Shown here piece after piece: positions 24,890 through 38,343 of a stretch of 64,000 nt of DNA (its first letter is position 1; each line of letters starts with the position of its first letter). Under the pieces are notes generated by a model. The model saw nothing but the letters and a program-made list of their open reading frames with translations, was not told the DNA's origin and searched no databases. A program made the translations under genes and the position numbers. Origin of the DNA: Cryptosporangium arvum DSM 44712 (GTDB taxonomy: Bacteria; Actinomycetota; Actinomycetes; Mycobacteriales; Cryptosporangiaceae); the NCBI RefSeq assembly GCF_000585375.1, contig NZ_KK073874.1:682001-746000 (forward strand), read 5' to 3'.

Positions 24890-27223
24890 GTGGACCACCT
24901 GGTCGCCCACGTGCGCGGCCTCGACCGGGCGGCACTGGCCGAACTGATCGCCGCGCGCCCCGACGCCGTGTCCTGGCCGGAGCCGCGGTCGCTCACCGAC
25001 TTCGCCGAGCGCCTCGGCGCGGTCCATTCGGTGCAGCGGGCGCTCGCCCGGGTCGACCGCGCCGGGCTGCAGGTGGCGGAGGCGATGGCGGCGCTCGGCG
25101 GCGCGGCCCCCGAACCCCGCCTGGCCGAACTGCTCGATGTGGACGACGCCGAGCTGTTCCGGCGGACGCTGGCGTCGCTCGCCGCGCTGGCCCTCGTCGT
25201 GCGGGCCGACGACGGGTCGCTGGTACTCGTCGCGCCGTTGCGTCTGCTCGCCGAGCCGCTCGGGCTCGGGGTGCGGCTCAGCGGGGTGCTGCCGCTGCTC
25301 ACCGTCGACCGGCTCCGGGCGATCGCCGAACTGTGGGTGCCGTCGCCGGCCCGGCGCCGGACCGAGCTCGTCGATCAGGTGCTCGACGCGGTGGCCGACC
25401 CGGCCCGGGTGCGCGACGTCGTCGACGGGCTTCCCCCGGATGCGCGTGAACTGCTGCGTGACCTGGCGTGGAACGGCCCGCGGGCGGCGGCGTCGTCCGA
25501 CCGGTCCTACCACTGGTGCGTCGAGCGCGGTCTGCTCACCCAGATCAGCTGGGACTACGTCGAGCTGCCCGGGGAGATCGGGCTGGCGCTGCGTGGCCCC
25601 GACTACCGCGCTCCGTTCAGCGTGCCGCCGCCGTCGCCGGTGTCCGGATCGATCGGCGAGGACGACCTGGTGGCCGCCGGGACCGCGGCGACCACCCAGG
25701 TGCTCGCGGACACCGAACGCCTGCTCGAGCTGTGCGAACGGACGCCGCTCGCGACGACGAAGAGCGGACGGGTGACGGTCCGGGAGGCGAAGCGGGCCGA
25801 GAAGGCGATCGGGGCCGGGGTCGGGACGCTGCTGTCGGTGGCGTCCGCGGCCGGGCTGCTCGGCTCGGCCGACGGCGCCGTGACGGTCACCGAACGGGCC
25901 GACGCCTGGCGGGACGCCGAGCCGGCCGTGCGGCTCGCGACGCTGCTCTCCGGATGGTGGAGCGAACCCGACGGCGCGGTGCTCCGGCAGCGGTTCGTCG
26001 GCTACCTCGCGGAGCTGCCCGACGGCGCCAGGACGGACGACGTCGACGCGGTCGCGGCGGCGCTGTCCTGGCGTCATCCGATCGCGGTCGCGCCGACTCC
26101 GGTCGACCAGGAGACGGTCGCGGCCCGGACCGCGGCCGTCCGGGCCGAGGCGGAACGCTTCGGTGTGGTCGCGCTCGGCGCCGCGACGCCGGTCGCCCGG
26201 GCACTCGTCGCCCGGCCCGCGTCGGTGGCGGCGGCGCCGGGTGCGCCGATGGTGGCGCCGGACGCGTTGGTGACCGCGGCGGAGCGGGTCGTGCCGGCCC
26301 CGGTGACGACGGTGACGTTCCAGTCGGACCTCTCGGCGGTGGTGGCCGGTGTGCCGACGGCCGAGCTGGCCGGCCTGCTCGACGGTGCGGCCGACCGCGA
26401 GGCCGCCGGGGCGGCGTCGATCTGGCGGTTCTCGGCCGCCAGCGTCCGCGCCGCGTTCGACGGCGGCGCCACCGCGGACGCGTTGCTGGCCGAGCTCTCC
26501 GCGGTGGCGACCGGGGAGCTGCCGCAGGCTCTGGGGTACCTGGTCGGGGACGTCGCCCGCCGCCACGGGCACGTGCGTGTCGCACCGGCCGGGAGCGTGG
26601 TCTGCGCCGACGACGAGGCGCTGCTCGCCGAGCTGGTAGCCACGAAGTCGCTGCGAGCACTGCGGCTGCGTGCGGTCGCGCCCACCGTGCTGCTGTCGGT
26701 CGCCGACCCGGACGAGACGCTGGCCGCGCTGCGGGCCGCCGGGTACGCCCCGGCCGGCCTCACCGAGGACGGTGTCGCCCGCGTCGAACGGCGGGTCCAC
26801 CGGCGGGCGAACGCGCCGCGGCCCTGGAGCCCGCAGCCCGAGGCCTCGGACGTCGATCCCGGCGCGATCGCCGACCGCCTTCTCTCGGCTCCGGAAGCGC
26901 CCGTGCGTCCGAGGTCCGATCCCTGGGTCGGTCTGCCCCGAACCGTCGCCGAGGCCCGGGCCGACCTGGCCGCCCGGCACCCGGGCGTGGTCGTGGACCG
27001 CCAGGCCGACGCGCTCTCCGCGCCGGAGCGCGCCCTCCTGCTCGACGCGATCGAGACCGGAGCTCCGGTGCGCATCGACTACGTCGGCGCGACCGGTAGC
27101 GCCACCTCCCGCGTGATCGAGAACGCCGAGCTCGCCGGCGACGCCGTGATCGCCTGGTGCCACCTGCGCGCCGCCGAGCGGATGTTCATTCTGTCCCGGA
27201 TCCAGACAGTTTCCCCGGCCTGA
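24890..27223 (+). CDS. Helicase C-terminal-like (XPB/Ssl2 N-terminal-type) protein with WYL-like end
   Basis: 777 residues from GTG 24890 (GAGGAGA upstream). The helical repeats at the start (HLVAHVRGLDRAALAELIAARPDAV, LLDVDDAELFRRTLASLAALALV) match actinobacterial proteins annotated as helicase-associated or Helicase_C_3 domain proteins, related to the N-terminal region of XPB/Ssl2. There is no Walker motif, so it is not itself an ATPase. The last about 70 residues (LLLDAIETGAPVRIDYVGATG, MFILSRIQTV) look like a WYL-type Sm-fold domain. In many relatives the XPB helicase gene lies close; here the following gene is an unrelated PadR. Probably a DNA-repair partner. Confidence 0.8.
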   Translation: MDHLVAHVRGLDRAALAELIAARPDAVSWPEPRSLTDFAERLGAVHSVQRALARVDRAGLQVAEAMAALGGAAPEPRLAELLDVDDAELFRRTLASLAALALVVRADDGSLVLVAPLRLLAEPLGLGVRLSGVLPLLTVDRLRAIAELWVPSPARRRTELVDQVLDAVADPARVRDVVDGLPPDARELLRDLAWNGPRAAASSDRSYHWCVERGLLTQISWDYVELPGEIGLALRGPDYRAPFSVPPPSPVSGSIGEDDLVAAGTAATTQVLADTERLLELCERTPLATTKSGRVTVREAKRAEKAIGAGVGTLLSVASAAGLLGSADGAVTVTERADAWRDAEPAVRLATLLSGWWSEPDGAVLRQRFVGYLAELPDGARTDDVDAVAAALSWRHPIAVAPTPVDQETVAARTAAVRAEAERFGVVALGAATPVARALVARPASVAAAPGAPMVAPDALVTAAERVVPAPVTTVTFQSDLSAVVAGVPTAELAGLLDGAADREAAGAASIWRFSAASVRAAFDGGATADALLAELSAVATGELPQALGYLVGDVARRHGHVRVAPAGSVVCADDEALLAELVATKSLRALRLRAVAPTVLLSVADPDETLAALRAAGYAPAGLTEDGVARVERRVHRRANAPRPWSPQPEASDVDPGAIADRLLSAPEAPVRPRSDPWVGLPRTVAEARADLAARHPGVVVDRQADALSAPERALLLDAIETGAPVRIDYVGATGSATSRVIENAELAGDAVIAWCHLRAAERMFILSRIQTVSPA

Positions 27224-27292: not shown

Positions 27293-27835
27293 GTGTCCAC
27301 GCCACAGGTACTGCTCGCACTGCTGGCCACGGGGCCCCGTCACGGCTACGACCTGAAGCGGGCCTACGACGTCCGGTTCCCGAAAGCACGTCCGCTCGCG
27401 TTCGGGCAGGTCTACTCGACGCTCGAACGTCTCACCCGCGACGGCCTCGCCACCGAGGCCGGCGTCGAGCGCGTCGACGGTCCCGACCGCACGGTGTTCG
27501 CGATCACCGACGCGGGCCGGGAGTCGCTGCGCGAGTGGCTCGACGTCGTCGAACCGCCGACCCCGCACGTCACGAACGCACTGTTCACGAAGGTCGTGGC
27601 GGCGTTGCTGGTGGACGAGTCGCCGGACGGTCTGGCGGTCACCTACCTGCGCGCACAGCGCCGGGCGCACCTCGCCCGGATGCGTGACTTCACCCAGGTG
27701 AAGACCGCCGACGGAGTCTCGGTCGGCGAAGTGCTCGCGGCCGACTACGCGCTGGCCCACCTCGACGCGGACCTGCGCTGGATCGACCTCACCCTGTCCC
27801 GGATTTCCGCACTGCGCCAGGAGGTACTCGCATGA
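27293..27835 (+). CDS. PadR-family transcriptional regulator
   Basis: 180 residues from GTG 27293; an in-frame GTG at 27278 lies inside the operator and is unlikely. Winged helix: STPQVLLALLATGPRHGYDLKRAYD, GQVYSTLERLTRDGLA, then FAITDAGRESLREWL. The C-terminal helical part is the dimerisation region. PadR proteins usually repress an efflux gene and themselves. Its stop overlaps the ABC ATPase start (ATGA), so it is the first gene of a PadR-ABC-permease operon. The dyad just upstream is probably its own operator. Confidence 0.92.
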   Translation: MSTPQVLLALLATGPRHGYDLKRAYDVRFPKARPLAFGQVYSTLERLTRDGLATEAGVERVDGPDRTVFAITDAGRESLREWLDVVEPPTPHVTNALFTKVVAALLVDESPDGLAVTYLRAQRRAHLARMRDFTQVKTADGVSVGEVLAADYALAHLDADLRWIDLTLSRISALRQEVLA

Positions 27836-28623
27836 CTGCCACTGTCCTCACCGGCACCGATCTGGAGCGCGCCTACGGCAAGACGCCCGCGCTCCGTGGA
27901 GTTTCCTGCGCGGTGCGGGCGGGTGAGATCGTCGCGATCACCGGCCCGTCCGGGTCCGGCAAGTCGACCCTGCTGCTCTGCCTGGCCGGCGTCCTGGTCC
28001 CGGACGCCGGAACCGTCACCTACGACGGCCGGCGCATCGACACGTTGCCGGAGGGCGAACGATCCCGGCTGCGCCGCACCGAGCTGGGCGTGCTGTTCCA
28101 GTTCGGGCAGCTGGTTCCCGAACTTCCGGTGGCGGAGAACGTCGCGCTCCCGCTGTTGCTCTCCGGCGCGCGCCGGAAGGCGGCGCTGGCGACCGCGACG
28201 GAGTGGCTCGACCGCTTCGGCGTGGCCGACCTGGCCGCCCGTTACCCCGGCGAACTCTCCGGGGGCCAGCGGCAGCGGGCCGCGGTTGCCCGCGCTCTGG
28301 TCACCGACCCGCGCGTGCTCTTCGCCGACGAACCGACCGGCGCGCTGGACTCGCTCGCCGGTGAACAGCTGCTCACCCAGCTCACCCGGGTGGCCAGGGA
28401 GAACGGCACCGCGGTGCTGATCGTCACGCACGAGGCCCAGGTGGCGGCCTACGCCCAGCGCGAGATCGCGCTCTGGGACGGCTCCGTCGTCGACGACGGA
28501 CTGACCGACGCGCCCACCGCCGGTGCGCGCCCCGGCTCCCGGCTGGTCGCCGGGGACGAACCGCAGCCGGTGGCCACCTTCGACGAATCCGACGCTCCGC
28601 TCACCGACCAGGGGAAGGGCTGA
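27832..28623 (+). CDS. ABC transporter ATP-binding protein (LolD/MacB type)
   Basis: 263 residues from ATG 27832, overlapping the PadR stop by 4 bp. Walker A GPSGSGKST lies at residues 38-46, the Q-loop in LFQFGQLVPELPV, the signature LSGGQRQR, Walker B VLFADEPTGALD and the H-loop IVTHEAQVA. The LFQ...VAENVALPLLLSG pattern fits the MacB/LolD/FtsE subgroup that works with FtsX-like permeases. About 40 extra residues at the C-terminus are loosely structured. It should pair with the permease 3 bp downstream to export a drug, peptide or lipid. Confidence 0.95.
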   Translation: MTATVLTGTDLERAYGKTPALRGVSCAVRAGEIVAITGPSGSGKSTLLLCLAGVLVPDAGTVTYDGRRIDTLPEGERSRLRRTELGVLFQFGQLVPELPVAENVALPLLLSGARRKAALATATEWLDRFGVADLAARYPGELSGGQRQRAAVARALVTDPRVLFADEPTGALDSLAGEQLLTQLTRVARENGTAVLIVTHEAQVAAYAQREIALWDGSVVDDGLTDAPTAGARPGSRLVAGDEPQPVATFDESDAPLTDQGKG

Positions 28624-30782: not shown

Positions 30783-31433
30783 ATGCCTACCGAACCCACC
30801 ACCAGCTCGTACGCGCTGCTCGGCCTGCTCGCGCTCCGTTCGTGGACCGCGTACGACCTCACCCGCCAGGCGAAACGCAGCATGCGGCTGTTCTGGCCGC
30901 GCAGCGAGGCCCACATCTACGGCGAGGTCAAGCGTCTCGTGCGCTGGGGATACGCCACCGCGGCCACCGAGCGGACCGGCAACCGCGAGCGCACGACGTA
31001 CGCGATCACCCCGGCCGGCCGCGACGCGCTGCGGGACTGGCTCGCGACGCCGCCGGCCGGGCCGCAGCTGGAGATCGAGGGCCTGCTCCGCCTGCTCCTG
31101 GCCGACCAGGGCGACCGCGGCGACGCCCTGCAGGCGGTGCGAGCCACCCGGGACGCGGTCGCCACCAGCTACGGGATCGGCATCGACCAGATGCGGGCCT
31201 ACGTGGAGGGCGAGGGCCCGTTTCCGGACCGGGTGCATCTCGTCGCACTGCTCGCCCGCTTCTACGCCGACTTCGCCGAGGCGATGCTCGATTGGTGCGA
31301 CGCCGCCGAGGCCGAGATCGAGGCGTGGCCGGACGTCCGCGGGGTCGGGCTCACCGACGTGACCCGCCGAGGGTTGGAGGACGCGATCGCGCGGTACGAC
31401 CGCCGTGTGCTGAGCGCTCGTCGGATGACGTAA
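30783..31433 (+). CDS. PadR-family transcriptional regulator with long C-terminal domain
   Basis: 216 residues from ATG 30783; no good ribosome-binding site is seen and the operator ends 13 bp upstream, so the transcript may be leaderless. The winged helix is YALLGLLALRSWTAYDLTRQAKRSMRLFWPRSEAHIYGEVKRL with TTYAITPAGRDALRDWL. The C-terminal half is the helical Vir-type dimer domain. It likely represses itself and the divergent mycothiol-dependent-type enzyme in response to a small molecule. Confidence 0.92.
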   Translation: MPTEPTTSSYALLGLLALRSWTAYDLTRQAKRSMRLFWPRSEAHIYGEVKRLVRWGYATAATERTGNRERTTYAITPAGRDALRDWLATPPAGPQLEIEGLLRLLLADQGDRGDALQAVRATRDAVATSYGIGIDQMRAYVEGEGPFPDRVHLVALLARFYADFAEAMLDWCDAAEAEIEAWPDVRGVGLTDVTRRGLEDAIARYDRRVLSARRMT

Positions 31434-31477: not shown

Positions 31478-31608
31478 TCCAGCGTTGGTCAGTCAGGCGG
31501 CCCACGCCGACCTCATCCGGGCGGACGAGGAAGCGCTGGACCCCTGCCGTCCGGGCGGGGTTCACCGGTACGGTCGGCCGGAGGCCGGTGGGGGATCGAG
31601 AGGCGCTA

Positions 31609-34600
31609 GTGACGGCGGTGTTTCCAGTGGCGGCGGCGACCGACCGGATCGAGTCATTGCGTACTCGCGTATCCCGTTTTTCCGACTACCTATCCGCTGT
31701 CCGTGCGCTCTCCGCCCGTCCGGCCCGAACCCTCGAGGCCGCCGAGACGGTCGTCTGGCAGGCCGCGCTGCCGGTGGGCAAGCCCGGCTGCTGGATAGCC
31801 GGCGCCGAATCGTCGGCGCCGGTCGCGTCGGCGTCGGTCGACGACGTCGAGGACCCCGACGAGACGGGCACCGGCGCGCGGGCCGACGAGTGCTGGCTCG
31901 AGCTGCGCCGGCCGCCCCGGCCGCGGCCGCCGGACCTCCCGGCCGTCGTGCGTTCGCTGCTGGACGGGCCGGTCGACGACCCCCGTCGCGAACCCGCCCT
32001 GCGCGACGGCTGGCGCGAGATCGCCGCCGAACGGGACGCCGACCTCGACCTGGACGCCGTGGAGCCGGCCGTCGACGAGTGGCTGCAGCGGCTCTGGCGC
32101 CCGTGGGCGGTGACCGCGGCCGAGGCCGACGCCGTGCGCGGTGCCTACTCGCGGCTGGTGGAGCTGCGGCAGGCCGCGGTGCGGCTGGAGGCCTCGCACG
32201 AGCTCGTCTGGGGCTTCGGCCTGTTCACCGGCGTCATCGGTGACGTGCCGGTGGAAGACCCGCTGCTCGCCGCGCCGGTCGGCATCGACGTCGACCCGGA
32301 GAGCGGCGCGCTGACCGTCGTGCCGACCGGTGAACTCCGGCTGCAGACCGACGCGTTCGAAGCCTTACCCGACGGGCCCGACGCCCGGCTGCACGATCTG
32401 GCCGGTCCCGGCGGAGCCGTGACGCTCGACCCGTGGGAGCAGTCCGGCCGCACCGAGTTCTACCGCTCCGCGCTGCGGCGGCTGGGGTTGCCGCCCCGGG
32501 TCATCCGCGAGGACGCCCAGATCGAGGAACCGCACGTCCGCGACACCGGTGTGATCCTGCTGCGCCCGCGTCGCACGGCGCTCTCCGGATTCCTCGCCGA
32601 CCTGCGCGCCTCGCTCGCCGCCGGTCACGTCCCGTCCGGGGCCCTGGCCGCGCTGCTGGCCGACGACCCGTCGACCCTCGACCTGCCCGACGACCCGCCC
32701 GAGCAGTGGCAGCCCATCGGTGAGCGCCTGCTGTTCCCACTGCCGGCCAACCTCGAGCAGGAGACGATCGCGCGCCGGCTGGCCCGCCAGCGCATGGTCG
32801 CGGTGCAGGGGCCGCCCGGCACCGGCAAGACACACACGATCGCGAACCTGATCTGCCACCTGGTGGCCCACGGCCGGCGGGTGCTCGTCGTGTCGCATCG
32901 CGACGAGCCGCTCGCCGAGGTACGCGACAAGCTGCCCCCGGCGCTGCGTCCGCTGGCGATAAGCGTGATGGGCTCCAGCGCGAAGCAACTCGGTCAGCTG
33001 GAGACCGCGGTGCGCCAGCTCCAGGCCGAAGCCGGAGCGCTCGACCAGGACGTGGCGGCCGAGGCCGTGGACGAGCTGTGGGCCGCGCTCGACACCGCGG
33101 AGCAGGACCTCTCGGCCAAGTACCACGCGCTGCGGGCCGTCGCCGACCGCGAGAGCGGCACGTTCCTGCTCGACGGCGTCGAAGCGACGGCGGTCGAGGT
33201 CGCCGAGTGGCTGTGGGCGAACGAGTCCCGGCTGGCGTTCGTGCCCGACACGATCGACCCGAACACGCCGTTCCCGCTCAGCGACGCCGAGCTCGCCGAA
33301 CTCACCGAGCTGACGAACACCTACCGGCCGGAAGACCTGGTCGACGCCCAGCGTCGGCTGCCGGAGCGGGAGTCGCTCCCGGACGGCAACCGGCTGGCCC
33401 GCGCCGACGAGCACGCGGAGGCGCTGCGTCAGCGGCTCGGTGCGCTGGCCTCGCTCGGCGTCGACGTCGCGACCGTCCGCGGCGCCGGGCGGCCGGTGGT
33501 CGCCGCGCTCGCCGACGAGATCTGGCGGATCGCGCACCGCGCCCGGTCGTACCAGCCCTGGCAGCTGCGCCTGGCCGGTCGGCTCGCGGTGTCGCCGGCC
33601 TGGCGCGAGACGTGTCAGGCCGAGGTCGCCGGGTGCGCGGAGATGCTCACCGAGACCGCCCGCTGGCGCAGCGTGCTCGCGGGGCGCGCGGTGCAGATCC
33701 CCGACGAGCTCTGGGCCGATCCCCGCCAGCTGCGTGCCGACCTCGACATGCTGCGGATCCGCCTGGTGGAGGCGCGCGGCGTCAGCCGGCTGATCCACCG
33801 GCGGCTGGCCCAGGTCCGCGACGACATCCGGGTCGACGGCGCGCCGCTGCGCACCGTGGACGACGTGGACGCCGCGCTGGCGACGGTCCGGCTGGACTGG
33901 GCGCGGCGGCGGCTCACCGAGCGCTGGAACCACTTCGTCGCCGAGCTGGACGGCCCGCAGGCGCCGGACGACCCCAGCACGGTCGAGGTGATCAGCGGCT
34001 ACCTGCGTGAGGTCGGCGACGTCGTCGACATCGGACTGCGCTACTGGCCGACGCTCCGCGAGCGGCTGGCGGTGTTCCTGCGGGCCGGCTCCCCGGGTGA
34101 GGCCGACTGGGCCGACCCCAACGCGCTGGCGGGCGCGGCCGGCCGGGCCGGCGAACTCGTCGCCGTGTTCGAGAGCGACGAGGCCGAGCGCGAGGGCATC
34201 CAGGTCCGCGCGCTGCTCGACGAGGCGCTCCTGGACGCGAACGCGTCGCCGTTGTGGCGCGAGCTCGACCGGTCCTGGGCCGTCGGCGACTACGCGGCCT
34301 GGGAAGCGGCGCTGGCCGGCGCCGACCGGCTGCGTGCGGCCGGCCCGGCGATGCAGCGCTGGCAGGAACTGCACGCGGGGCTCTCCACGATCGCGCCGCT
34401 CTGGGCCAGCCGCATCGCGCTCGAGGGTGACCTCCCGGACCCGGCGATCAGCCAGCAGGCCTGGAACTGGCGGCGCGCCGACACGTGGCTGCGCATCGTC
34501 ATCGGCGTCGAGGACACCGGCGCGCTCGGGCGGCAGGCCGACGCGCTGCGCGACCGCGCCCGCGAGCTCGTGGGTGAGCTCGCGACCCGGTCGGCCTGGC

Positions 34601-37600
34601 TGGCCGCGGCCCTCCGGATGGACGACCGCGCCCGCGACGCGCTGGCCGGATGGGCGTCGGCGCTGCGCAAGGTCGGAAAGGGCTCCGGACGCCGGGCCGC
34701 GGGCTGGACCGCGCTGGCGCAGCAGCACATGCGCGAGGCCGTCTCGGCGGTGCCGGTGTGGGTGATGTCGGTCGAGCGCGCGCTGCAGCAGTTCACCGGC
34801 GGTACGACGCCGTTCGACGTGGTGATCGTCGACGAGGCGAGCCAGTGCGGGCTGCTCTCGATGCCGGTGCTCTCGCTCGGCACCCGGGCCGTCGTCGTCG
34901 GTGACGACCGGCAGATCGGCCCGTACGCGATCGGCCTGGCCCACGACGACGTCGCCCGGCTCGGTCAGGAACACCTCGGTGACCTGCCGTCCTGGCCGCT
35001 GTTCGACGTGACGACGAGCCTCTACGACCACGCGGTGCGGCGGTCGCCGGAGCCGCTGATGCTCACCGAGCACTTCCGGTGCGTGCCGGAGATCATCTCG
35101 TTCTCCAGCGACCAGTGGTACGACGGCACCGTGCAGCCGCTGCGCGCGGACCGCGGCCGGTTGGACCCGGTGCGCGTGGTGCGCATCCCCGGCACGCGCG
35201 AACGGCGCGACCGGTACGGCGAGGTCAACCTGGCCGAGGCCGACGCTCTCGTCGCGACGATCTCCCGGCTGGCCCTCGACCCGGACTACGCCGGCCTGAC
35301 GTTCGGCGTCGTGAGCCTGCTGGCCAGCAGTGGGCAGGCGCAGTACATCAACGAGCAGCTGGTGCGGCACCTGGGCGAGCAGGAGATGGCCCGGCGTTCG
35401 CTGAAGGTCGGCGACTCGTACACGTTCCAGGGCGCCGAGCGGGACGTCATGTTCATCAGCCTGGTCGTGTCCGATCGCGACGATCACCGGGCGGCGTTCA
35501 CCGGCGCGGACCACCACCGCCGGGTGAACGTGGCCGCGTCGCGGGCCAAGGACCAGATGTGGGTCTTCCATTCGGTCGGCCCCGAGAACCTGCATCCGGA
35601 CGACGCCCGGGGCGCGCTGCTGCGGTACTGCGCGGCGCCCCGCCTGGGGTTGGCCGCGCTGGCCGCCGAGCCGGTTCCGGACGAGACGCTCTACGCGGCG
35701 TGCGAGTCGGAGCTCGAGCGGTCGGTGCTGCGTGAGCTGCTCAACATCGGGATCCGGCCCGCGGTGCAGTACCCGATCGGGCGGCACCGCGTCGACTTCG
35801 TGATCCCGACCGCGGACGGGCGGCGGCTCGCGATCGAGTGCGACCACGGGCGGTACCGCGGTGCGGCCCGGTGGGCCGAGGAGATGCGTCGCCAGGCCGT
35901 GTTGGAGCGGGTCGGCGGGTGCGTGTTCTGGCGGGTGCGGGGGACGCTGTTCGCGCGTGATCCCGACGCGGCGTTGGCCGGGCTGTGGCCGTTGATGGAC
36001 GAGCTCGGGTTGCTGCCCGAGGAGTACCGGGAGTATCTGCTCGGCGCGGAGTCCTTTGCGGAGCCCTTCGCCGGGGAGCCGGAGGAGCCGCAGCCGGTCC
36101 ATGAGGTGGCGGAAAGCCTCGAGGAGTGGGTCGAGGACGACGGGTGGGACGAGAACGGGGAGTGGGTGGAGGAGGTTCCGGCCGAGCCGGTCCGAGCCGG
36201 GGCGACCGATCTCACCGTGGTGCTGCCGTTCGTGCGCCTGCCGGAGGACGAGGCCGTATCCGAGGAGCCCGCTGGGCCTTCCGAGCCTGCGGAGGACCAG
36301 TGGGCCGGGGATGCTCCGACGATCGTCCGGTTGGAGGATCTGACCGGGGAGGTGCCGTCGCCCCTGAACCCCTGGGTCGGTGACGCGCCGACGATCCCGA
36401 CGATCGAGGATCTGCCGCTGGACCACCCGGCTCGGCGTTTGCTGCCCGGCCTGATGCCCCGCACCTCCACCGAAGCGCCCCGGCCCGTCTCGCCGGCGGC
36501 GCACCCGGTGTCGGGGGCGCCCGTCGAGGCGTACCCCGTGTCCCCGGCGGCCCAGGAGCCGTACCCGGTGTCCGCCACCGAGGAGGTGTACCCGGTGTCA
36601 CCGGCCGCTCAGGAGGCGTACCCGGCGGCACCGGAGGCGTACCCGGAGGCCTATCCGGTGTCGCCGGCCCCGGTGGAGCCGGATCAGCCCGTTTCGCCGG
36701 CCTACTCGGCGGCGCAGCCGGTCTACCCGGTGTCTCCGGCCGGGGCCGGGCCGGACGAGCCCGTGTCGCCGATCTACCCGGTGGCGTCGGTCTATCCGGT
36801 GTCGCCGGCGGGGGAGCAGCCGGAACAGCCCGTCTCGCCGGCGGAGGAGCCGGTTGCGCCGCCCGCGCCGGCGGCCGCACGGCTCGTGCCGCACCCGGCC
36901 CAGCGCGCCCGCCAGCTGGCGCAGCAGGCCGCAGCCGCGCCCCAGGCCCAGCCGGCCGCAGCCGCGTCCCAGGCCCACCAGGCCGCCGCGTCCCAGGCCC
37001 AGCCCGAGCAACCCACGCCGCTCGAGCCCCAACCGCAGCCGGAGCCGCACGGGCGGTTCGAGCCGCACGAGCAGGCGGAGCCGGACGGGCGGTTCGAGCC
37101 GCCGGGGCAGCCGGAACCGTACGCGCCGCCGCAGAGCGAGCCGCAAGCCCAGCGAGGGGTGTACGGGGTTCGGGTCGAAGAAGCGCCGGAGGCGCGCGCG
37201 CAGTCCGGTGTCCCCGGGTTGCCCACGCGCCGGCCCGTGGCGGTGCCGCCGCCGGAGGACCTCGAGCGCTTCGACCCAACCGCACCCGCACCCCACCCGG
37301 CCGCGGTGACACCGGCCGCGCCACAACTGCCACCCCAGCAGATACAGCCGCAGCCGCAGGCGCCCCAGCAGCAACCGCCGCTGATGCCGCCCCCGAGCGC
37401 GCAGACGCAGGGGGTCGCGCAGGTGGCGCCCACCTCGCCGGGCGGATCACCGGTCAGCTGGTGGAACGACGGGCCGACCACACCCGCCCCCACCCAGTTC
37501 ACCGAAGCCACCCGCCCCCTTCCGCTCGTCACCCCGCCCGAACCGGCCAACTACCAGGAGGTCGGCGCGATCCGTGCGGACGAGGCCCGAGCGGCCCTGC

Positions 37601-37893
37601 AGGCCTACCGCTCGGGTGTCGACACGCCGGTGCAGTCCGGCGGCAAGATCGTCGGCTGGGCGTGCTTCTACCCGGACGATTCCATCGAGGCGCAGCGCAA
37701 CCGGGCCAACGTCGAAGTGATGCGTCAGGAGGAGGCCCTCACCGAAACGGCCGGCTGGCTCACCAACTCGGAGGCCGCCGCGATCGTCGCCGCGTCCGAA
37801 CAGCGCCGGGACGTCCCGGTCGTCGATCCGGCCTACGGCGAGGTGGGCCTGGTCCGCTTCGCCGCGGACGCGCTGACTCTCCTGCGTCGGTGA
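31609..37893 (+). CDS. Giant SF1 (DNA2/NAM7-like) helicase fused to PD-(D/E)xK-type nuclease, with repeat-rich tail
   Basis: 2094 residues from GTG 31609 (GAGAGG five bases upstream; in-frame starts further 5' lack a site). SF1B helicase motifs: I GPPGTGKT at 401-408, II VDEASQ near 1074, III VVGDDRQIGP, HFRCVP, SYTFQGAERDVMF and VAASRAKDQMWV near 1305. A long helical insert separates motifs I and II. Residues about 1364-1465 are a restriction-endonuclease-like domain (YPIGRHRVDFVIP, IECDHG, D1396/E1410/D1412), like the REase_MTES_1575 type fused to such helicases. Then follow about 500 low-complexity residues (repeated YPVSPA units, later Gln/Ala/Pro-rich) and a folded-looking C-terminus from about 1980. 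Helicase-nuclease fusions of this type are candidate phage-defence or repair factors. It abuts the convergent MarR gene by 3 bp. Confidence 0.9.
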   Translation: MTAVFPVAAATDRIESLRTRVSRFSDYLSAVRALSARPARTLEAAETVVWQAALPVGKPGCWIAGAESSAPVASASVDDVEDPDETGTGARADECWLELRRPPRPRPPDLPAVVRSLLDGPVDDPRREPALRDGWREIAAERDADLDLDAVEPAVDEWLQRLWRPWAVTAAEADAVRGAYSRLVELRQAAVRLEASHELVWGFGLFTGVIGDVPVEDPLLAAPVGIDVDPESGALTVVPTGELRLQTDAFEALPDGPDARLHDLAGPGGAVTLDPWEQSGRTEFYRSALRRLGLPPRVIREDAQIEEPHVRDTGVILLRPRRTALSGFLADLRASLAAGHVPSGALAALLADDPSTLDLPDDPPEQWQPIGERLLFPLPANLEQETIARRLARQRMVAVQGPPGTGKTHTIANLICHLVAHGRRVLVVSHRDEPLAEVRDKLPPALRPLAISVMGSSAKQLGQLETAVRQLQAEAGALDQDVAAEAVDELWAALDTAEQDLSAKYHALRAVADRESGTFLLDGVEATAVEVAEWLWANESRLAFVPDTIDPNTPFPLSDAELAELTELTNTYRPEDLVDAQRRLPERESLPDGNRLARADEHAEALRQRLGALASLGVDVATVRGAGRPVVAALADEIWRIAHRARSYQPWQLRLAGRLAVSPAWRETCQAEVAGCAEMLTETARWRSVLAGRAVQIPDELWADPRQLRADLDMLRIRLVEARGVSRLIHRRLAQVRDDIRVDGAPLRTVDDVDAALATVRLDWARRRLTERWNHFVAELDGPQAPDDPSTVEVISGYLREVGDVVDIGLRYWPTLRERLAVFLRAGSPGEADWADPNALAGAAGRAGELVAVFESDEAEREGIQVRALLDEALLDANASPLWRELDRSWAVGDYAAWEAALAGADRLRAAGPAMQRWQELHAGLSTIAPLWASRIALEGDLPDPAISQQAWNWRRADTWLRIVIGVEDTGALGRQADALRDRARELVGELATRSAWLAAALRMDDRARDALAGWASALRKVGKGSGRRAAGWTALAQQHMREAVSAVPVWVMSVERALQQFTGGTTPFDVVIVDEASQCGLLSMPVLSLGTRAVVVGDDRQIGPYAIGLAHDDVARLGQEHLGDLPSWPLFDVTTSLYDHAVRRSPEPLMLTEHFRCVPEIISFSSDQWYDGTVQPLRADRGRLDPVRVVRIPGTRERRDRYGEVNLAEADALVATISRLALDPDYAGLTFGVVSLLASSGQAQYINEQLVRHLGEQEMARRSLKVGDSYTFQGAERDVMFISLVVSDRDDHRAAFTGADHHRRVNVAASRAKDQMWVFHSVGPENLHPDDARGALLRYCAAPRLGLAALAAEPVPDETLYAACESELERSVLRELLNIGIRPAVQYPIGRHRVDFVIPTADGRRLAIECDHGRYRGAARWAEEMRRQAVLERVGGCVFWRVRGTLFARDPDAALAGLWPLMDELGLLPEEYREYLLGAESFAEPFAGEPEEPQPVHEVAESLEEWVEDDGWDENGEWVEEVPAEPVRAGATDLTVVLPFVRLPEDEAVSEEPAGPSEPAEDQWAGDAPTIVRLEDLTGEVPSPLNPWVGDAPTIPTIEDLPLDHPARRLLPGLMPRTSTEAPRPVSPAAHPVSGAPVEAYPVSPAAQEPYPVSATEEVYPVSPAAQEAYPAAPEAYPEAYPVSPAPVEPDQPVSPAYSAAQPVYPVSPAGAGPDEPVSPIYPVASVYPVSPAGEQPEQPVSPAEEPVAPPAPAAARLVPHPAQRARQLAQQAAAAPQAQPAAAASQAHQAAASQAQPEQPTPLEPQPQPEPHGRFEPHEQAEPDGRFEPPGQPEPYAPPQSEPQAQRGVYGVRVEEAPEARAQSGVPGLPTRRPVAVPPPEDLERFDPTAPAPHPAAVTPAAPQLPPQQIQPQPQAPQQQPPLMPPPSAQTQGVAQVAPTSPGGSPVSWWNDGPTTPAPTQFTEATRPLPLVTPPEPANYQEVGAIRADEARAALQAYRSGVDTPVQSGGKIVGWACFYPDDSIEAQRNRANVEVMRQEEALTETAGWLTNSEAAAIVAASEQRRDVPVVDPAYGEVGLVRFAADALTLLRR
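36481..36860 (+). repeat. Degenerate in-frame repeats coding YPVSPA-like units
   Basis: Within the helicase-nuclease gene, about a dozen imperfect units encode variants of AYPVSPAAQE (for example PVSPAAHPVSGAPVEA, EEVYPVSPAAQEA, QPVYPVSPAG). The DNA copies differ at many third positions, so this is an old protein-level repeat. It is followed to about 37480 by a Gln/Pro/Ala-rich stretch. The pattern suggests a flexible, disordered linker. Confidence 0.75.
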
Positions 37894-37896
37894 GGG

Positions 37897-38343
37897 CTAC
37901 CCCCCGAGCAGCACGAGCAGGCGGTTCAGCGCCGGTAACGCGGCGGCCAGCGCCTCGACGTCGGCCTGGTCGAGTTGGTCGGCGGCGGAGATCGCGATCC
38001 GGCGTCGCCGATCCGTGTAGCCGTCGATCAGCTCCCCGGCACTCGGCGTCAGCGTGAGGCGTACCGCCCGCCGGTTCTGCGGGTCGGGCGTCCGGTCGAG
38101 GTAGCCACCCGAGGTGAGGTCACCGACGAGCGTGCTCACCGTGTTGGGTGCCGTGCCCAGCACGGCCGCGACTGCTTTGACGCCGATCCCGGGCTGCGCC
38201 AGCACCACCCGCAGCACCTCCATCTGAGCGGAGGGCAGCGGTTCGTCCGGCTGGTCGCTCCGGGCGGCTCGGCGCAACGTCCGATGTAGCCGACCGAGTA
38301 AGGCGCTCAACTCGTCGGCGACCGCTCCCGGGGTGGCCGCCAT
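37897..38343 (-). CDS. MarR-family transcriptional regulator
   Basis: 148 residues from ATG 38343 with AAAGGAG upstream. Winged helix: LPSAQMEVLRVVLAQPGIGVKAVAAVLGTAPNTVSTLVGDLTSGGYLDRTPDPQNRRAVRLTLTPSG-type wing with the conserved DxRxxR-like NRRAVRL. MarR dimers repress genes in response to phenolic or oxidising compounds. No obvious target is adjacent; it lies between two genes on the other side of terminators, and may be controlled separately. No clear operator was found upstream. Confidence 0.92.
   Translation of the reverse strand: MAATPGAVADELSALLGRLHRTLRRAARSDQPDEPLPSAQMEVLRVVLAQPGIGVKAVAAVLGTAPNTVSTLVGDLTSGGYLDRTPDPQNRRAVRLTLTPSAGELIDGYTDRRRRIAISAADQLDQADVEALAAALPALNRLLVLLGG

Follow-up and report, generated by a model that had tools for sequence, protein, structure and literature searches.

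A helicase-nuclease of a defence-associated clade at a fixed locus of Cryptosporangium, with an altered nuclease motif and a C-terminal module

What is the role of a very large helicase-nuclease whose gene stands alone in a bacterial genome? The question is raised by a gene of Cryptosporangium arvum DSM 44712, which lies in a stretch of 64,000 nucleotides (contig NZ_KK073874.1, positions 682,001 to 746,000). This stretch is called the window here, and its own numbering is used throughout. An earlier sequence-only reading had proposed that the gene is a possible one-gene defence or repair system. The present analysis favours, with a probability of roughly one half, a surveillance or restriction function in this genus, performed by a helicase-nuclease of a defence-associated clade that is now a fixed stand-alone gene. 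A tie of the surveillance to defence is argued from the motor, the retained nuclease fold, the selection acting on the protein and the defence setting of a sister clade. A changed role is indicated by the altered nuclease motif, the genus-wide synteny and the missing partner.

The gene is a single uninterrupted open reading frame at 31609–37893 on the forward strand, with a GTG start and 2094 residues. Its guanine-cytosine (GC) content by codon position is as in coding DNA, and the context of the start codon is kept in four species, that of the window and three congeners. The 2094-residue gene proposed from the letters is real on these grounds. From the reading frame, Pfam, codon-position GC and alignment, the protein is composed of a superfamily 1 (SF1) helicase, a Vsr-type restriction endonuclease (REase), a tail and a C-terminal module, all of which are encoded on the forward strand. 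Pfam assigned AAA_11, AAA_12 and the MTES_1575 REase to it. The N-terminal region (residues 1–375, 31609–32733) had no Pfam match. The motor starts with Walker A, GPPGTGKT with K407 (residue 401 on, 32809–32832), and Walker B is VDEASQ with D1075 and E1076 (residue 1074 on, 34828–34845). The later motifs GDDRQ, EHFRC, SYTFQGAERD and NVAASRAKD start at residues 1098, 1154, 1270 and 1307, and the second motor domain, AAA_12, occupies residues 1136–1320 (35014–35568). All of the motifs except VDEASQ were seen in an alignment of 36 proteins, the window protein and 35 homologues, from which the split homologue L023 was excluded. A sequence search of solved structures gave motor relatives that include Sen1, NAM7/Upf1 and SMUBP-2. 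Walker A, Walker B and the later motifs are all intact, and the protein is an SF1 helicase of the Upf1/Sen1/DNA2-like kind, as the sequence-only reading had it. The ratio of nonsynonymous to synonymous substitution rates (dN/dS), determined throughout for the six pairs of the four species, was 0.07–0.20 in two motor segments and 0.13–0.21 in the N-terminal region.

The REase domain (MTES_1575, residues 1370–1460, 35716–35988) matched Pfam with 64 bits, the gathering cut-off being 38.2. A model of residues 1355–1490 built on the 36-sequence alignment had a mean predicted local distance difference test score (pLDDT) of 89.7. Foldseek compared it with 3hrl and with the I-Bth0305I domain 3r3p at a probability of 1.00, but with E values of only 0.006–0.017, and returned zero matches at E ≤ 0.001. 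A profile made from the same alignment matched 3hrl with an E value of 1.2e-5. A PD-(D/E)XK-type fold is predicted with confidence for this Vsr-type domain. The REase-like domain proposed earlier was borne out by the Pfam score and the predicted fold. The lack of any nuclease fold in structure prediction, which had been named in advance as a reason to give up the idea, is not what was found.

The motif within the domain is a different matter. D1396, E1410 and D1412 are all at the places named from the letters, but four neighbouring consensus positions are changed. The altered motif (residues 1410–1425, 35836–35883) carries G1413H, D1414G, H1417R and D1425E and keeps E1410 and D1412. The window protein retains E1370, D1396, E1410 and D1412, which are found in 36, 35, 33 and 36 of the 36 rows, respectively. 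The consensus residues at the changed positions are G1413 in 31/36 rows, D1414 in 32/36, H1417 in 28/36 and D1425 in 31/36, and a test for the consensus ECDGDxxHG...D motif failed with the window protein. The canonical residues were kept in all 15 proteins of the sister clade, which belongs to another genus (g16), and in a second copy of the gene in the congener G001. Purifying selection on the REase domain is strong in spite of its changed motif (dN/dS 0.05–0.14). L074, a homologue outside the clade, shares the H-to-R and D-to-E changes with the window genus, a parallel in the alignment which suggests that the two changes go together. In the Actinoplanes/Symbioplanes homologues L022, L024 and L025 the catalytic-type Glu is lost (ECD to ICD or VCD) and so is the His; judged from these residues, the domain has decayed separately there. 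Taken in sequence order only, E...D...H...D is reminiscent of the name EDxHD, that of a class to which I-Bth0305I is assigned (PMC3943268).

Behind the nuclease comes a low-complexity tail rich in Pro, Gln and Ala (residues 1480–1975, 36046–37533). It consists of degenerate tandem repeats, aligns badly even among congeners and evolves fast (dN/dS 0.37–0.66). The very long disordered tail of the sequence-only reading holds up to about residue 1975, whereas the final 119 residues are a folded module (residues 1976–2094, 37534–37890). Modelled on 19 sequences, this module had a mean pLDDT of 92.8 and a predicted template modelling score of 0.85, and it shows two similar strand-helix-strand-strand units. 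Its dN/dS was 0.23–0.31. No Pfam match was obtained in the module at E 0.1, Foldseek gave 0 hits at E 0.001, and the best Z in VIA-align was 4.1 over 56 residues, which is not meaningful. These absent structural matches do not prove a new fold. The module was found in at least 12 of 397 order genomes (2 of 85 genera), and in at least 1 of 396 genomes of a phylum sample, the sole one being the window's own. The genome searches scored few first-look candidates per genome, namely 3 in a 200-genome order search, 10 in the module searches, at most 12 in g16 and at most 14 for the partner core, and their counts are lower bounds. In viral contigs 36 stretches matched a pattern of the module and 0 were confirmed; on plasmids there was no match.

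The defence link comes from the sister clade. Its proteins share the motor-REase order with the window protein and are 42–45% identical to it over about 1470 residues. In contrast to the window gene, they have the canonical nuclease motif (15/15), lie in a defence-gene setting and are patchy. A core tree united the window genus with its four g16 rows at a Shimodaira-Hasegawa-like approximate likelihood ratio support of 99, obtained by a quick search without bootstrap and with long branches flagged. The gene is present in 13 of 61 g16 genomes, counting the search centre G083 and a distant match, G803. The latter is 34% identical and outside the sister clade, and was excluded from the 15 in-clade loci; its flank had none of the reference defence genes. 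Twelve of the 15 came from the g16 search, and G243, G330 and G358 were found through the module, which biases the set toward module-bearing loci. A complete restriction or defence gene was present in the fetched stretch of 13 of the 15, and of 10 of the 12 loci from the g16 search. The 13/15 is a raw count over loci of common ancestry. Because of this ancestry, and because some of the loci share a flanking gene, they are not independent events.

At six of the 15 loci there is a convergent operon with Z1, DUF4420 and AIPR proteins, the fetched stretch of G083 stopping before Z1. The operon beside the sister gene L102, the only Mza-type locus scanned with PADLOC, matched MzaC with 645, MzaD with 79 and MzaE with 297 bits. 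PADLOC was run on the representatives L102 and L069, and the remaining loci were assigned by BLAST/tblastn; the fetched stretches L103–L112 were taken as far as gene calling. The last gene of the Mza-type operon encodes a protein of 911–994 residues. In the two that were scanned, sigma-70 region 4 scored above its cut-off, while the RNA polymerase alpha C-terminal domain and HARE-HTH scored below theirs. The protein is called sigma-like rather than MzaA here because the MzaA model, with a cut-off of 800, gave 26 bits for one of the two and did not list the other. The gene mzaA is described as a sigma factor, and related operons are reported, in PMC9523054. The sigma-like protein ends in the same module as the helicase-nuclease in 6 of 6 cases. 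This module-sharing partner is present in 6/15 g16 loci and in 3/12 of the loci from the g16 search, the search centre included. The sequence-only idea of a one-gene system is thereby divided: the gene is alone in the window genus, but 6/15 sister loci have a tag-sharing partner. In another genome, G006, a partner core without the module adjoins Z1 and DUF4420 genes; operons of this kind are therefore where the partner belongs, and the module was either added or lost. The module tree places the partner modules and the g16 helicase modules in separate groups (support 99/98 and 94/99), and therefore no recent copying took place between partner and helicase.

At the other g16 loci the setting varies. 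Five have a complete type IV restriction-type gene, the one scanned scoring 911 bits to PADLOC mREase_IV. G278 and G805 have GmrSD genes near the helicase-nuclease, G018 has only a short fragment of a type IV gene, and G791 has no restriction or defence gene on a contig that ends close by. Ten of the 15 g16 proteins carry the C-terminal module, and 4 of the 15 end just after the REase. All of the 10 have an extra conserved C-terminal domain (the last ~110 residues; L069–L070), which the window protein lacks. In five g16 genomes, genes of 386–394 residues (L129, L130, L131, L099 and L127), 64–89% identical to one another, lie close to the helicase-nuclease. The one scanned is an APH-type phosphotransferase, and their recurrence hints at a shared insertion place.

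Outside the genus the gene is patchy. Matches at 1e-20 were found in at least 30 of 200 order genomes and 16 of 60 genera, the four congeners included, and the gene was not found in the sole genome of the other genus of the family (0/1). Ubiquitous conservation as a housekeeping gene, which the sequence-only reading regarded as fatal to a defence role, was found only in part: the gene is genus-wide, yet it falls well short of ubiquity in the order. Megablast found no close plasmid copies. With the motor-REase stretch as tblastn query, 100 plasmid records matched, all below 60% identity and at 34–39% among the matches listed, as did 2 phage records at 27–28% over about half of the query.

Several observations at the locus weigh against the favoured reading. 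The gene is at the same place in 4/4 genomes of the genus, and such inheritance is unusual for a defence gene. In place of G1413, D1414, H1417 and D1425, the window protein and its three orthologues carry H, G, R and E, the change being present in 4/4 genus genomes. When 20 window neighbours were compared with PADLOC, 18 had no match at 1e-4 and none had a confident defence profile. Around the window gene and its three orthologues, the stretches searched gave no match to references for Mza, type IV, GmrSD and the partner core, and the partner core was not found in the genus genomes G000–G003. The module itself is present once in the window's genome, G000. The defence role put forward earlier is thus favoured by the nuclease fold and the defence-linked sister clade, but opposed by fixation in the genus, by the lack of defence neighbours, by scores below all curated family cut-offs and by the altered motif. 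From sequence comparison, phage defence by the window copy is plausible.

The neighbourhood check gave a syntenic locus in 4/4 genus genomes without a confident defence gene nearby. The proteins of the three other congeners are 88–89% identical to the window protein. The shared order is an MDMPI-type protein, a PadR regulator, the helicase-nuclease, a MarR regulator, a transglycosylase and a GH6 cellulase. The synteny is imperfect: G003 yielded neither the PadR gene nor three genes that lie past it, and G001 and G002 show differences in individual genes. By neighbour annotation, the PadR-family regulator lies upstream on the same strand (30783–31433, forward; in 3/4 genus genomes), and the MarR-family regulator is convergent (37897–38343, reverse), 3 bases past the stop codon of the helicase-nuclease. 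The gene does stand alone between two regulators, as had been noticed. The four-species alignment also revealed a conserved leader before the start codon (31534–31608, forward). From 31534 to 31613, leader and start together, 74 of 80 positions are invariant, compared with 52% at third codon positions. A structured leader RNA was rejected with a z-score of 0.23. Because the leader folds no better than shuffles, it is more likely to be a site of protein binding or translation control than a structured RNA.

Further upstream, an ABC-transporter ATPase (27832–28623) matched mad3 (96 bits) and mad8, which is taken as a shared ATPase domain. A helicase-C/WYL protein (24890–27223, forward), 4 kb upstream and kept in congeners, had only a 28-bit match to a WYL defence profile. 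The only AIPR match of the window's genome (G000:C1:6387453-6387980) lies in a 641-residue gene at 6.39 Mb, and no Z1, DUF4420 or partner match was found in the 19.9 kb examined there. The second copy of G001, L066 (G001:C11, 9433–14646, reverse), is 54% identical, lies at a different place and has the canonical motif and the module. Its neighbours are GAF/ANTAR and PAS/histidine-kinase signalling genes. A PADLOC match was obtained for one of the five neighbours scanned, an oxidoreductase (41 bits), and references for Mza, type IV, GmrSD or the partner had no match beside it.

Under the favoured surveillance or restriction function, the motor would load on foreign nucleic acid that is single-stranded or abnormal in some other way, and translocate along it. 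Behind the motor, the fused Vsr-like domain may nick this nucleic acid, or may bind it with weakened or altered cleavage given H1417R and D1425E. The C-terminal module would be held out by the flexible tail, as a tag on which a protein partner can dock. The probable partner in the sister genus is the sigma-like protein of the Mza-type operon, which bears the module; in the window genus the partner would be absent or another protein. The net effect would most likely be restriction of phage or plasmid DNA, the main alternative being a shift to quality control of host DNA or RNA. A joint reading of the two genera can be offered only tentatively. In it, the module is a matching tag that couples the SF1 helicase-nuclease to the Mza-type sigma-like protein, and in the window genus the tagged motor persists as a fixed gene, with its nuclease retuned and a different partner to serve. 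As a part of this same tentative reading, a transcription-factor-like sensor and a motor-nuclease would form a two-part system and recognise each other through the same domain.

Among the rival explanations, the best surviving one is a domesticated housekeeping helicase for DNA repair or for RNA or R-loop processing, whose fused nuclease is now a binding domain and whose defence role was lost. It is on balance unlikely, though it accounts for much that is peculiar to this genus: the common place in 4/4 genomes, the change of four consensus positions in a domain on which purifying selection is still strong, the second copy in G001, which lies elsewhere and has the canonical motif, and the conserved leader. 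There is also a precedent. In Pseudomonas aeruginosa a DUF4011 gene is core, being in every isolate examined, and flanks a defence hotspot (PMC10250203); by this analogy, core status is possible for a gene that may be related in kind. However, a housekeeping role fits poorly with the lack of conservation outside the genus, from the other genus of the family (0/1) to the order (30/200), and with a sister clade that lies among defence genes.

A stand-alone phage defence with an active nuclease, as first proposed and as in Hhe or ProA, would require that the altered motif still cleaves, and it is less probable still. The protein has the motor-then-REase order of ProA and PDC-S37, and E1370, D1396, E1410 and D1412 are retained. 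Nevertheless, its scores are far under the curated cut-offs, and the consensus His and second Asp that 15/15 g16 loci and the second copy of G001 keep are replaced in 4/4. The loss of E1410 in the three Actinoplanes/Symbioplanes homologues and the H-to-R and D-to-E changes of L074 indicate, moreover, that this domain can decay or change. Finally, it is very improbable that the gene is a relic of a two-part system that persists with little function, its module being the tag for an Mza-type sigma-like partner lost here; the helicase-nuclease and the partner do have the module in common in 6 g16 loci and the partner core is missing from G000–G003, but every folded part, the module included, is under purifying selection, and the module tree is compatible with gain in g16 as well as with loss in the window genus.

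If the favoured function is true, the gene illustrates how a patchy, defence-linked helicase-nuclease can become fixed throughout a genus, with its nuclease altered. It would also provide a short, expressible pair of domains, the helicase module and the partner module, for testing the tag-based recruitment of a motor-nuclease by Mza-type operons. Among the papers searched, neither the genus-wide altered motif, nor the C-terminal module, nor the sharing of the module with a sigma-like protein was found described; the module is nameless and so not directly searchable.

The protein was also compared with known systems. The three best NCBIfam scores were those of ProA and Hhe, both described as anti-phage, and PLuB, which is not so described; these scores stem largely from the shared motor. 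The anti-phage protein ProA (NF058533) gave the best score, 152.2 bits against a cut-off of 1500, and the protein is not a member. The two share an SF1 motor followed by an REase region (residues 373–1436 against ProA 643–1677), while the ProA model is without a match over its first 642 positions. Hhe (NF042953) gave 78.6 bits against a cut-off of 2000, again without membership. Its best stretch covers the second motor domain and the REase (residues 1046–1457); on the other hand, the window protein has no DUF4011 match (Pfam, E 0.1). In PADLOC the helicase-nuclease matched MkoC, PDC-S37, MkoA and Hhe. These matches weigh less because the PADLOC library consists entirely of models for defence or candidate defence systems. 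Mokosh has a phospholipase D (PLD) nuclease in type II and a kinase-linked pair in type I. The window protein has neither a PLD nor a kinase domain, and its best MkoC stretch is 671–949 of 1136. The candidate PDC-S37 gave 122.7 bits in two stretches, the better being 918–1332 of 1550, from a profile without a stated cut-off; it has the same motor-then-REase order. Nhi and Hachiman were not among the 10 PADLOC families matched at E 0.01 or better. By the profiles used, the protein belongs to none of Mokosh, Nhi and Hachiman, with which the sequence-only reading had suggested comparison. As for the Mza system (MzaABCDE), its C, D and E profiles match the operon beside L102, and five more loci were assigned to it by BLAST/tblastn, whereas no MzaC/D/E operon surrounds the window gene or its three orthologues. 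A further likeness in architecture is the MTES_1575 protein, given in PMC3710099 as HEPN, transglutaminase, SF1 helicase, Vsr REase and two winged helix-turn-helix domains. The fusion of an SF1 motor with a Vsr-type REase of the same family is already known from that protein. In contrast to it, the window protein has no HEPN, transglutaminase or DUF3320 match (Pfam, E 0.1), and has instead a low-complexity tail and a different C-terminal module.

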